Source: Lactiplantibacillus songbeiensis (GTDB taxonomy: Bacteria > Bacillota > Bacilli > Lactobacillales > Lactobacillaceae). Taken from it: a stretch of DNA of 64,000 nt. Of the stretch, positions 193 through 61,830 are shown in pieces; the first letter of the stretch is position 1; each line of letters starts with the position of its first letter. Below the pieces are notes generated by a model. It was not told the DNA's origin. It searched no databases and worked only from the letters and a program-made list of their open reading frames with translations. The position numbers and the translations under genes were made by a program. Location: assembly GCF_005405125.1 (NCBI RefSeq), contig NZ_BJDL01000010.1, positions 62,001 to 126,000 of the forward strand. Direction: 5' to 3'.

Positions 193-528
193 AATTGTTT
201 CACTACGCTTAGTGCTAGTTGAAATTTCCGCCTGCCGGTTGGTTCCTAAAACGCTGAAACGACACAGCTGAGCATTTTATGAACCAACGGCTCGGCTAAA
301 CTTATGGCCAACAATAAATAGTCAATAATCCCCGTTAGTTAACGTCGAGCGGACCAGAATTGGCTCAGTGGTGTCGTTTATCTTAGTCGGTGATTTTCCG
401 ACTTAGATAAAGCCCGGCTTGGAAGACCGCTCTTCGGCTTCCAAACGTGGCCACCACGTTCCAGCCGATTCTGGGCCAACCAGAGTGGCAATTTAAGCCA
501 ACTAACATCAAGCGTAATTGTTTCACTA
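193..528. mobile_element. MITE-like composite repeat with 13-bp target duplication
   Basis: Element body about 206-515. Its ends are inverted repeats (ACGCTTAGTGCTAGTT at the left; the right end reads ACGCTTGATGTTAGTT on the other strand). It is flanked by the identical direct repeat AATTGTTTCACTA at 193-205 and 516-528. Inside are a collapsed type-2 unit (about 217-300, with both inner hairpins deleted) and a full type-1 unit (about 345-493) with outer stem P1 and hairpins P2 and P3. No transposase is encoded. This element fills the gap between the partial first gene and the acyl-CoA dehydrogenase. Confidence 0.8.
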
Positions 529-8102: not shown

Positions 8103-8258
8103 TGCCACTCTGGTTGGTCCAGAATCGGCTGGAACGTGGTGGCCGCGTTTGTGAGCCAAAGAACGGTCTCACAAGCCGGGCTTTGACTAAGGCTGGGAAA
8201 ACCACCCAACCTAAGTCAAACGACACCACTGAGCCAATTCTGGCCCGCCCGACGTTAA
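8103..8258 (-). repeat. Type-1 three-way-junction element
   Basis: Outer stem P1 pairs the GGCCAGAATTGGCT-type end with AGCCGATTCTGG. P3 stem is TTGTGAG / CTCACAA around the conserved ACCG...TGG core; P2 stem is TTTGACTTAG / CTTAGTCAAA. It sits 30 bases upstream of the TetR start, so TetR must be transcribed through it or from its flank. Confidence 0.85.
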
Positions 8259-12363: not shown

Positions 12364-12753
12364 ACGCTTGATACTAGTTGGATTAAATTGCCCACTCTGG
12401 TTGGACCAGAATCGGCTGGAACGTGGTGGCCACGTTTTCGAGCCACAAAACGGTCTCGAAAGCCGGGCTTTATCTAAGTCGGAAACTCACCGACTAAGAT
12501 AAACGACACTACTGAGCCAATTCTGGCCCGCCCGCCGTTAATTACCAGATAATAATCATCTAATCCACAGATTTAGCCGAGAGGTTGAATTCTAAAATGC
12601 TCAGCCGTGTCGTTGGCCTTAGTGCGAGTGACTTTCTCGGACTTAGGCCAAGGTCAGTTTTGAAGACCGGGCTGTGGCTTCAAAATGGCCCATGGCGTTC
12701 CAGCGTTTTAGAATCCAACCGGCAGGCGGCAATTTTAACTAGCACTAAACCCG
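12364..12753. mobile_element. Composite repeat: type-1 plus type-2 units
   Basis: Ends are related inverted repeats (ACGCTTGATACTAGTT on the left; CTAGTTAAAATTGCC read inwards from the right). Type-1 unit about 12389-12543 with P3 stem TTTCGAG / CTCGAAA. Type-2 unit about 12575-12745 with outer stem CTAAAATGCT / AGCGTTTTAG, inner stems TTGGCCTTAGT / ACTTAGGCCAA and TTTTGAAG / CTTCAAAA. I see no target duplication, so the flanks may have decayed. It fills the gap 12338-12831. Confidence 0.8.
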
Positions 12754-15826: not shown

Positions 15827-15934
15827 TTAAATTCACATTCTTTCTTCAATAACTTCTTGTCAAACAGTTTACCCCATTTCGTTAACAATTGACAATATTT
15901 GTATATACTTTTTCTAATGATTGTTCATTTGTCT

Positions 15935-16234
15935 TGCCACTCTGGTTGGACCAGAATCGGTGTTAGCTAGACTGATTGCCCGCCGGTTATTTTCTAAAAT
16001 ACTGGCATGCTTTGGCCGACATTTTAAGAACCAACTTCTCGACTAAATTCATGGATTAATATTAATCAATAACTACCCGTTAGTTAACGCCGGGCGGGCC
16101 AGAATTGGCTCAGTGGTGTCGTTTATCTTAGTCGTGGTTTTGCGACTTAGATAAAGCCCGGCTTTCGAGACCGCTCTGTGGCTCGAAAACGTGGCCACCA
16201 CGTTCCAGCCGATTCTGGCCCAACCAGAGTGGCA
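15935..16234. mobile_element. Nested repeat: broken type-1, collapsed type-2 and full type-1
   Basis: Begins as a type-1 end (TGCCACTCTGGTTGG, 15935) that stops abruptly at about 15961. A composite end then takes over (TTAGCTAGACTGATTGCCCGCCGG). It continues with a type-2 unit lacking its inner hairpins (to about 16045) and a complete type-1 unit (16085-16234) with P3 stem TTTCGAG / CTCGAAA. This pattern suggests one element inserted into another or a deletion between copies. It fills 15940-16240. Confidence 0.7.
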
Positions 16235-20192: not shown

Positions 20193-20372
20193 GTAGTTGG
20201 CTTAAATTGCCACTCTGGTTGGACCAGAATCGGCTGGAACGTGGTGGCCGCGTTTGTGAGCCAAAGGGCGGTCTCACAAGCCGGGCTTTGACTAACTCGA
20301 GAAAATCGCTCGACTAAGTCAAACGACACCACTGAGCCAATTCTGGCCCGCCCGGCGTTAACTAACGGGGAT
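20193..20372 (-). repeat. Type-1 three-way-junction element
   Basis: Left end TAGTTGGCTTAAATTGCC is the composite terminal repeat. P3 stem TTGTGAG / CTCACAA, P2 stem TTTGACTTAG-TCGAG / CTCGAGTTAGTCAAA. The spacer seen in composites follows (GGGGATTGAAAAATTA), but the type-2 half is missing, so this is a truncated composite. It fills 20185-20400. Confidence 0.85.
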
Positions 20373-20497
20373 TGAAAAATTAGCGTCATTGAATACACCT
20401 TTTTGCTACAAATCTACCTTACCTGCAACATGGCTAGCTTTTATTTAAGGAATTGTTTTACAATACCGGCAAGTCAAATCAAAGGAGCTAGATAAGT

Positions 20498-20986
20498 ATG
20501 CAAAAGCGTTTATTAGATTATCTTAAATATAACAACGCTATTTGTTCCATCAATAACTACACGCCAGTCCCAGCACTATCATTAGGCCTATTTATTGAGA
20601 TTATCATCATTTGTATTGGTACCTATATTCGACTGGTTATGTTTGATGCAGTACTTCCAGATTTTTCCCTAATACTAAACCTCACTGACTTATACATTAA
20701 CGCACCTCAATTTATGATGGCACCACCCAATAGTCAACAAGTCGCCAACGGACTGCGCATCTGCCTGTCAGCCGCTGTATCTATCAATCGACACATCTAC
20801 CCACTACTAGTTACTATTCTAGGCAATTGCCTAAGTCCGCTTACAATTTGGTACGGGACATTTGCTGTAATTGTCTTACTAATCATCTTGTCGCCCAAGA
20901 TTAACCAGCACCCACTACTTAACGCCAGGCGGGTCAGAATTGGCTCAGTGGTGTCGTTTATCTTGGTCGGTGATTTTCCGACTTAG
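20498..20986 (+). CDS. Small membrane protein whose end is repeat-derived
   Basis: 162 residues. AAGGAGCTAGATAAGT gives a good ribosome site. Hydrophobic segments lie at about 28-50 and 105-132. From about residue 142 the reading frame runs into a type-1 repeat (ARRVRIGSVVSFILVGDFPT is translated repeat, the same peptide pattern that other copies encode in this frame). The original C-terminus was therefore probably lost or replaced. Family not recognised. It may be a decaying gene. Confidence 0.6.
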   Translation: MQKRLLDYLKYNNAICSINNYTPVPALSLGLFIEIIIICIGTYIRLVMFDAVLPDFSLILNLTDLYINAPQFMMAPPNSQQVANGLRICLSAAVSINRHIYPLLVTILGNCLSPLTIWYGTFAVIVLLIILSPKINQHPLLNARRVRIGSVVSFILVGDFPT

Positions 20987-21070
20987 ATAAAGCCCGGCCC
21001 GGAAGACCGCCCTTCGGCTTCCGATCGCGGCCACCACGTTCCAGCCGATTCTGACCCAACCAGAGTGGCA
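20917..21070 (+). repeat. Type-1 element overlapping a gene end
   Basis: Complete P1/P2/P3 architecture. P3 stem CGGAAG / CTTCCG around ACCG...CGG; P2 TTTATCTTGGTCGG / CCGACTTAGATAAA. Its first 70 bases are the 3' end of the upstream reading frame. Confidence 0.85.
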
Positions 21071-28334: not shown

Positions 28335-28437
28335 GCGCTTTCAGTCCTCTCATTTGAAACTAACTTAAATAGCATAGCACAAGTTACGGTCAGCTAGGTC
28401 GGATGAGCTTTCCGCTTCGTGTTAGATAGATATAACT

Positions 28438-28557
28438 TGCACTCTGGTTGGTCCAGAATCGGCTGGAACATGGTGGCCGCGTTTTATCTAAGTCGGCAAC
28501 CCACCGACTAAGATAAACGACACCACTGAGCCAATTCTGGACCGCCCGGCGTTAATT
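28438..28557 (-). repeat. Type-1 element lacking hairpin P3
   Basis: P1 and P2 (TTTATCTTAGTCGG / CCGACTTAGATAAA) are present, but the linker and P3 hairpin are cleanly missing: GGCCGCG joins straight to TTTTATCTAAG. A natural deletion mutant of the family. Confidence 0.8.
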
Positions 28558-34114: not shown

Positions 34115-34543
34115 TAATCAATGTCTACACTTAGTGCTAGTTTGCTTAAATTACCACTCTGGTTGGTCCAGAATCGGCTGGAACGTGGTGGCCACGTTTT
34201 TGAGCCAAAAAGCGGTCTCAAAAGCCGGGCTTTATCTAAGGCCGGAAAATCACCGACCAAGATAAACGACACCACTGAGCCAATTCTGGCCCGCCCGGCG
34301 TTAAATAACCGGAATTGAAAAATTAATGATTGATTATTCTCAGTTCAGTTATTTAGCCGAGCCGTTGATTCCTAAAATGCTCAGCTATGTCGTTGGCCTT
34401 AGTGTGAGTAGTCTGCTCGGACTTAGGCCAAGGTCAGGTTTGAAGACCTCAGCGTTGGCTTCAAAATGGCCCATGGCGTTCCAGCGTTTTAGGAGCCAAC
34501 TGGCAGACGCAATCTTAACTAGCACCAAGCGTAATCAGTGTCT
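34115..34543. mobile_element. Composite repeat with 12-bp target duplication
   Basis: Element body 34127-34531 (405 bp). Direct repeats TAATCAATGTCT (34115-34126) and TAATCAGTGTCT (34532-34543) flank it with one mismatch. Terminal inverted repeats: ACACTTAGTGCTAGTT and, inverted, CGCTTGGTGCTAGTT. Type-1 unit about 34150-34310 (P3 TTTTGAG / CTCAAAA), spacer with TTTAGCCGAGCCGTTG, type-2 unit about 34370-34500. The most intact composite in the window; it fills 34090-34621 upstream of no obvious promoter. Confidence 0.85.
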
Positions 34544-54074: not shown

Positions 54075-54335
54075 TAACTGGTTCATCATTGGAAATCAGC
54101 CATTCAACTAAATTTACTGACTAAGAAGATCCTCATTAACTTATAAATGTCCATTAATTAACGCCGGGCGGGTCAGAATTGGCTCAGTGGTGTCGTTTAT
54201 CTTGGTCGGTGATTTTCCGACTTAGATAAAGCCCGGCTCGGAAGACCGCTCTTTGGCTTCCGAACGTGGCCACCACGTTCCAGCCGATTCTGGCCCAACC
54301 AGAGTGGCAAATTAAATCCAACTAATGACTAAGAA
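54075..54335. repeat. Composite remnant: eroded type-2 plus full type-1 element
   Basis: Type-1 unit about 54155-54312 with P3 TCGGAAG / CTTCCGA and P2 TTTATCTTGGTCGG / CCGACTTAGATAAA. Upstream 54075-54120 retains only fragments of type 2 (TGGTTCATCATTGG...CAGCC...ACTAAATTTA). The right end matches the composite terminal repeat. With the type-1b copy it fills the 53801-54373 gap between mupG and murQ; I see nothing else there. Confidence 0.75.
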
Positions 54336-61677: not shown

Positions 61678-61830
61678 TTGCCGCTCCGGTTAGGCCGGAT
61701 TTGACGCTGGAACGTGGGGCCACGTTTGCGAGCCAAAGAACGGTCTCGCAAGCCGGGCTTTCACTAGACCGAAAAAAACGGCCAAGTAAAATTTCACCAC
61801 TGAGCGTCATCCAGCCCAACCTGCGCTAAA
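61678..61830 (-). repeat. Type-1b three-way-junction element
   Basis: P3 TTGCGAG / CTCGCAA; P2 TTTTACTTGGCCG / CGGTCTAGTGAAA; outer stem GGCTGGATGACGCT against GACGCTGG...CCGGCC. It lies about 40 bases upstream of the GH5 start, in or near its promoter region. Confidence 0.83.

Follow-up and report, generated by a model that had tools for sequence, protein, structure and literature searches.

The structured repeat examined here, a three-way-junction arm that we call type 1, is probably the right half of a short mobile element of the MITE kind, without genes of its own, whose ends fold, whose copies decay, and whose stems are exchanged between copies. Three features bring us to this reading: arms standing in inverted pairs, inverted repeats at both ends of the paired unit, and target-site duplications, which together point to a MITE-like nonautonomous mobile element with structured ends.

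The Unit and Its Copies

The window, by which we mean the whole stretch of 64,000 nucleotides that was analyzed, is G000:C10:62001–126000 of a 3.03-Mb draft genome. The unit at 206–515, which contains the arm under study, is laid out as follows.

193–205, unstranded: left target-site duplication AATTGTTTCACTA, 13 of 13 letters identical to 516–528
206–515, unstranded: the whole putative mobile unit, 310 bp, with a type-2 arm remnant, a spacer, a type-1 arm, and inverted repeats at both ends
206–222, plus: left terminal inverted repeat CGCTTAGTGCTAGTTGA
221–300, minus: type-2 arm that has lost P2 and P3, recognized by sequence, no model match
342–487, plus: type-1 arm (the studied copy), 167.1 bits with model R1, folded
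354–365, plus: 5' strand of P1, CCAGAATTGGCT, partner 463–474
366–367 and 458–462, plus: asymmetric loop between P1 and P1b, CA opposite GTTCC
368–373, plus: 5' strand of P1b, GTGGTG, partner 452–457
377–411, plus: P2 hairpin
412–451, plus: P3 hairpin with bulged A
498–515, minus: right terminal inverted repeat CCAACTAACATCAAGCGT
516–528, unstranded: right target-site duplication AATTGTTTCACTA

The duplication is a perfect 13 bp, reduced to 12 bp when the count of the inverted repeat begins at ACGCTT. Nearby, positions 569–2170 would encode a 533-aa fusion of an acyl-CoA dehydrogenase with the FAD domain of an electron transfer flavoprotein alpha subunit. The window holds two further units and a series of other type-1 arms, each of the latter a covariance-model match.

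12366–12750, unstranded: second unit, type-1 arm 12393–12538 (minus) and type-2 arm 12578–12726 (plus); ends without a clear duplication, score 2.5
34129–34530, unstranded: third unit, type-1 arm 34155–34301 (minus) and type-2 arm 34358–34507 (plus); 12-letter duplication with 1 mismatch
8106–8255, minus: type-1 arm
16087–16231, plus: type-1 arm, with type-1 and type-2 fragments at about 15915–16060
20211–20358, minus: type-1 arm; a different P1 at this site in Lactiplantibacillus dongliensis (G193)
20922–21067, plus: type-1 arm, at the 3' end of ORF 20498–20986
28440–28552, minus: type-1 arm without P3
53839–53987, minus: type-1b arm; in L. dongliensis deleted between CGGTT direct repeats
54161–54306, plus: type-1 arm; both strands of P2 and of P3 are different in the orthologue
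61682–61826, minus: type-1b arm

An earlier note on this DNA had placed ten type-1 copies in the window, and the covariance model finds an arm at every one of them; the seven P3 stems that it quoted are also present in the window copies. To its list we add the arm at 28440–28552 (minus) and three type-2 arms, at 12578–12726 (plus), 34358–34507 (plus), and about 221–300 (minus).

A Conserved Fold

The earlier note had folded each copy into P1, P2, and P3. The three-way junction is real; what that fold overlooked is a further helix and the loop that leads to it. P1 (CCAGAATTGGCT/AGCCGATTCTGG) is joined by a nearly fixed asymmetric loop, CA/GTTCC, to a second helix, P1b (GTGGTG/CACCAC), which precedes the junction with P2 and P3. 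Type-2 arms have the same architecture and different helices. When the 342–487 copy is folded, z = −6.09, a value equaled by none of 200 shuffles, and in the 35 of our 42 type-1 arms that could be parsed, P3 is fully Watson–Crick in 28, has one G·T in 5, and has one mismatch in 2. Single-sequence folding has its exceptions: the copy near 12389 prefers another fold, the one near 28430 is unable to form P3, and the one near 61678 shifts P1/P1b. The pattern GCTCAGTGGTGTCG has 220 exact occurrences in the 3.03-Mb genome and, read backwards, none. A tRNA reading was rejected, none being detected in the window, although GCTCAGTGG resembles a D-arm.

Do the helices covary beyond what common descent would give? 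From the loci of the best matches, 29 in number and all in genomes other than ours, we drew 40 matches (E ≤ 1e-5), which span six genera (g1, g5, g12, g16, g21, and g22), and fitted them to the structure. In this alignment, A3, 97.2% of 2044 cells are paired, and two-sided changes are seen in 45 of 52 pairs. Its covariation score of 0.665 compares with 0.173 when shuffled and at most 0.092 when slid. Under a tree-based null, tested with a purpose-written script in the style of R-scape and not with R-scape, 26 of 9453 column pairs covary, of which 24 lie in the structure (24 of its 52 pairs, at E < 0.05) and the other 2 adjoin it. The 54 arms of a genome of genus g4 (G128) give 97.7% of cells paired and a score of 0.562 vs. 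0.183. The arm fold, in other words, is conserved above tree expectation in several genera with most helix letters changed, and the covariation that the earlier note had been ready to give up, should it fall short of phylogenetic expectation, exceeds it at those 24 pairs.

Paired Units, Inverted Repeats, and Duplications

In stretches of our own genome picked partly for density, two arms stand back to back at 24 places, mostly a type 1 with a type 2, 30–75 bp apart (spacers between the two types are mostly 39–61 bp), divergent, and with 3' ends outward. Arms were counted as strong if they scored at least 120 bits and had 700 nt of sequence to either side. Of 74 such arms, 53 have a divergent partner on the 5' side, detected by the model in 47 cases and as a type-2 remnant in 6; the other 21 show none, and a mirror control finds 0 of 74. 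The arrangement recurs in other genomes, of other genera too, where spacers run from 47 to 425 bp among the 22 pairs listed.

Terminal inverted repeats of about 16 bp, ACGCTTGGTGCTAGTT with mismatches (up to 5 were allowed), mark both ends of 34 units. The target-site duplications of these units, a set that includes two doubtful ones (L079:1148 and L128:10875), have a mean score of 6.19, against 3.42 for swapped flanks, a difference reached in 0 of 5000 permutations. A score of at least 5 (5–14 matching letters) is found in 25 of the 34 and in 13% of swapped pairs; the remaining 9 score below 5 and have no clear duplication. For 18 units of g4, including the rows of two (L163 and L164) whose left ends were misplaced by the script, the means are 4.47 and 3.39 (1 of 5000), and with the set narrowed to the 11 units whose ends are best, the permutation count is 3 of 5000. 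By eye, one g4 unit is nested inside an arm of another, in its P2 hairpin, and shows an 8-bp duplication that is imperfect (L163:1380–2260, L164:1400–2270). The outer inverted repeats differ by genus, ACGCTTGG in g1 and GGTTCTTT in g4, and one transposase for all is therefore unlikely.

The arms have little room for protein: any one frame stays open in at most 11 of the 42 type-1 arms. Nor does a single gene always lie between them, the content differing by eye at four places. Most of the g4 spacers displayed are hairpins with A and T runs. Those of six G128 units (L131, L160, L163, L164, L167, and L169) hold a long hairpin between A/T runs, like a bidirectional terminator, and three of these units (L131, L167, and L169) are, by eye, apparently inserted in host terminator hairpins. 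In another genome, G044, a complete 86-aa ORF fills the spacer between divergent arms at L066:1163–1501 (= L194:2052–2392); its RelB match is weak (E = 0.018, below the Pfam cut-off), and it could be either cargo resembling an antitoxin or a host gene with an insertion on each side. The spacer at L146:4278–4660 of the same genome has a 39-aa hydrophobic ORF without a Pfam match and a strong hairpin followed by T, which by eye resembles a type I toxin module.

Exchange of Stems Between Copies

Comparison with L. dongliensis is close (MupG protein identity is 99%, with 95% for L. daowaiensis, G302, and 92% for L. mudanjiangensis, G287). Among eight arms compared, six differ by 0–2.1%, one by 13.7%, and one by 16.9%, for a total of 53 of 1140 letters; for comparison, intergenic DNA elsewhere differs by 2.3% and third codon positions by 6.0%. 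The orthologue of the arm at 54161–54306 differs at 20 of 146 letters, mostly two-sided swaps of P2 and P3, with both flanks kept, at a site where the two species are about 97% identical; a few further changes lie just outside the arm. This swap is best read, we infer, as conversion from another copy, and it means that part of the covariation seen within a genome is whole-stem exchange between copies. At 20211–20358, P1 differs on both sides and the core is nearly identical; since the flank toward 20445 has diverged as well, the site has probably undergone a larger replacement. One L. dongliensis unit has unmatched filler as its counterpart in the window. In the approximately 48 kb aligned, we saw no clean recent insertion, and the differences look like deletions or replacements. 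Between two arms, at 20445–20915, the window has about 0.5 kb containing most of a 162-aa ORF without a Pfam match, and the counterpart in L. dongliensis is about 4 kb of different DNA; the arms may act there as recombination sites.

The earlier note had argued that compensatory change is not expected in neutral repeats. With whole stems passing between copies, that statement was too strong. Could exchange and repair have made the fold without any need for it? It has to be asked whether the element is mobile but its fold functionless, with template switching in palindromes (quasi-palindrome correction) and conversion keeping the arms complementary. We consider this unlikely. It would accommodate the 20 of 146 differences at 54161–54306, set against 2.3% in other intergenic DNA, and the P3 variants that are common to groups of copies and are combined with different P2 types. 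What it leaves unexplained is that the unpaired letters GCTCAG and GTTCCAGC and the bulged A are nearly fixed across six genera.

The strand on which imperfect pairs fall bears on the same question. On the modeled strand of A3, there are 72 G·T cells to 14 A·C cells; one-sided departures run 43 to 9 in A3, 139 to 63 in all our own arms (38 to 12 in type 1, 28 to 21 in type 2), and 37 to 22 in G128. Counted by distinct types, the ratios are 28 to 8 in A3 (p = 0.001), 52 to 34 in our own set (p = 0.066), and 15 to 12 in G128 (p = 0.70). A functionless fold agrees with G·T being only 72 of 2044 A3 cells and with a bias by distinct types that is borderline in our own set and nonsignificant in g4; the excess of G·T over A·C in A3 is left unexplained by it. 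The excess leans toward a folded single strand of the modeled sense, and it would look the same for DNA or RNA.

Position Relative to Genes

Arms are intergenic almost without exception: 1 of 108 lies inside an ORF, as judged by a crude ORF caller (7 of 115 arms had no neighbor gene). They occupy 36 of the 137 gaps between tandem genes, 17 of the 59 between divergent genes, and 15 of the 43 between convergent genes, and their orientation against genes shows no clear preference. Nineteen of 32 solo type-1 arms face a gene on the opposite strand, and 13 of these 19 end within 74 nt of that gene, a closeness to gene ends that is unexplained.

If the arms acted in transcripts that leave or cross the unit, as a host regulatory or processed RNA, the strong and strand-biased conservation of the fold would make sense, as would the 13 of 19 solo arms that end so near an opposite-strand gene; spacers elsewhere can also carry terminator-like hairpins and small ORFs. 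We nonetheless think such a role improbable. The gap counts just given show no clear orientation preference, promoter-like sites number 0 in three units against 0.5–0.6 in shuffles (a weak test), and the occurrence in both orientations, the target-site duplications, and the decay all suit a mobile element. Position gives a host-gene RNA little support. Of the three functions that the earlier note had offered, a transposition substrate fits the inverted pairs, terminal inverted repeats, and target-site duplications, and the terminator-like element finds no support: in the three units, terminator-like sites number 0, 0, and 1, near the shuffle level of 0.4–0.6, and on these counts an intrinsic terminator was rejected.

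The Search for a Transposase

What enzyme moves the unit? No transposase was identified for the element, and no autonomous copy with the same ends was found in 527.5 kb of the 3.03 Mb or in the wide pairs examined. Those 527.5 kb of our own DNA contain seven wide end pairs (520–5000 bp) with arm sequence at both ends. They look like the ends of separate units, and the idea of an autonomous unit in the wide divergent pairs was dropped because the ORFs in the gaps look, by eye, like host genes.

REP/BIME elements are moved by RAYT transposases, and we know of no target-site duplications made by them. It is very improbable that ours is an element of this kind moved by a Y1 (RAYT) transposase. The two do have in common inverted pairs of strand-specific hairpin structures, and our own genome has three Y1 matches; it is also the only one of five arm-bearing genomes to have any, with no match in G193, G128, G159, or G044. 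Moreover, the arms are about 146 nt long and their units have target-site duplications, whereas REPs are described as palindromes of 20–40 bp (PMC3733652), with GTAG or CGTC at one end, a size well short of the arm.

The ISL3 family, whose elements make 8-bp duplications, has transposase matches in three of the five arm-bearing genomes, all g4, and none in our own or that of L. dongliensis. The ISL3 elements of G128 begin GGTTCTAA / GGCTCTTT and g4 units begin GGTTCTTT; about the first six letters alone agree. The likeness may be called suggestive only, and an ISL3-derived MITE is possible for g4 alone. G128 also has a 1.4-kb repeat with, by eye, a TnpB-like 389-aa ORF (L135:1301–2705, L152:1067–2467, and L154:6971–8373). 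As a partner for the arms, this gene was rejected: it lies within 80 bp of an arm in two of three places, which we took as chance.

Spread and Likeness to Known Systems

Searches used model R1, built from 11 window copies, and its E-values are rough. In our own genome, all 150 candidates scored match at E < 1e-33, and 126 kb of our contig 10 hold 24 arms, which would amount to several hundred in the genome if they are evenly spread. The other genomes range widely, with 86 matches in G128, 61 in G159, 8 in G044, and 15 arms in 60 kb of L. dongliensis. The search of other Lactobacillaceae that the earlier note called for finds arms across 12 of 40 genera: R1 matches at least 75 of 301 genomes of the family (our own included) and at least 24 of 395 of the order, all within the same family. 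These counts are lower bounds, since no more than 10 candidates were scored per genome in the family search and 7 in the order search, with stricter filters applied. In a phylum sample of 398 genomes, an uncounted number of them family members, our own matches and 0 of 397 others do; here the searched family is read, going by the relatives named above, as Lactobacillaceae and the phylum as Bacillota.

The earlier note knew no named family for the repeat, and Rfam 15 agrees, with 0 matches above the gathering cut-off in the window; E-value searches of three stretches returned weak snoRNA, lncRNA, and miRNA matches only (best E 0.015, far below the cut-off). We recognized no published description of the element in a literature search on the titles and abstract openings of mainly freely available papers. 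A phage or plasmid element was tried and rejected, one 411-base unit having no match and one exact gapped pattern occurring 0 times in viral contigs.

The element works like a MITE with structured ends, and nearest in kind are BOX/RUP/SPRITE and bcr1. The BOX, RUP, and SPRITE repeats of Streptococcus pneumoniae are described as small, interspersed, and extensively folded; they are thought to be parasitic and likely to affect co-transcribed genes, and are almost absent beyond the pneumococcus and its near relatives (PMC3049150). Ours are set apart by that description, the abstract of which does not speak of paired inverted three-way-junction arms (PMC3049150). The bcr1 and other BCR repeats are described as 100–400 bp long with mobile features, found in the Bacillus cereus group only, and linked to a TTTAT motif, with bcr1 averaging 39 per strain (PMC6542083); by this description our elements differ, having no match outside the family searched. 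Bacterial MITEs as reviewed (RUP, NEMIS, bcr1, ERIC, YPAL, Nezha, and EFAR) are non-coding and gene-adjacent, 70–300 bp long, with inverted repeats of 15–30 bp (PMC3733652). Terminal inverted repeats, a target-site duplication, and lack of coding capacity are all found here; the window units are longer than that account gives, at about 310–400 bp, and each of their ends carries a covarying three-way junction kept across genera, while g1 and g4 have different outermost inverted repeats. Lac-1 of Lactobacillus johnsonii, reported in a stem-loop repeat survey as 231 bp and within coding sequences (PMC2267715), is likewise a structured repeat of lactobacilli and, as described there, is set apart by being intragenic.

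How the Element May Live

How might all of this have come about? A transposase made elsewhere would have moved the unit into intergenic DNA, where the copies would then decay, above all by slippage and loss of the type-2 arm. Each end would have to fold single-stranded, as DNA during transposition or as RNA, and this need would preserve pairing in the helices as their letters drift and hold the letters of loops and junction almost constant, with stems spreading between copies, probably by conversion.

A broader proposal, which we put forward tentatively and with more doubt than belief, is that these elements form a family-wide transposable class, in which both ends are conserved three-way junctions that work in a folded, single-stranded state (DNA or RNA), exchangeable outer inverted repeats let different transposases serve different genera, and there is room for cargo such as terminators and toxin- or antitoxin-like ORFs.

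A structured repeat with so many arms, and absent from Rfam at its cut-offs, would affect assembly, the calling of promoters and terminators, and the annotation of sRNAs. It also makes testable the question of why some mobile repeats without genes retain so elaborate a fold, and in which form, DNA or RNA, that fold is read.
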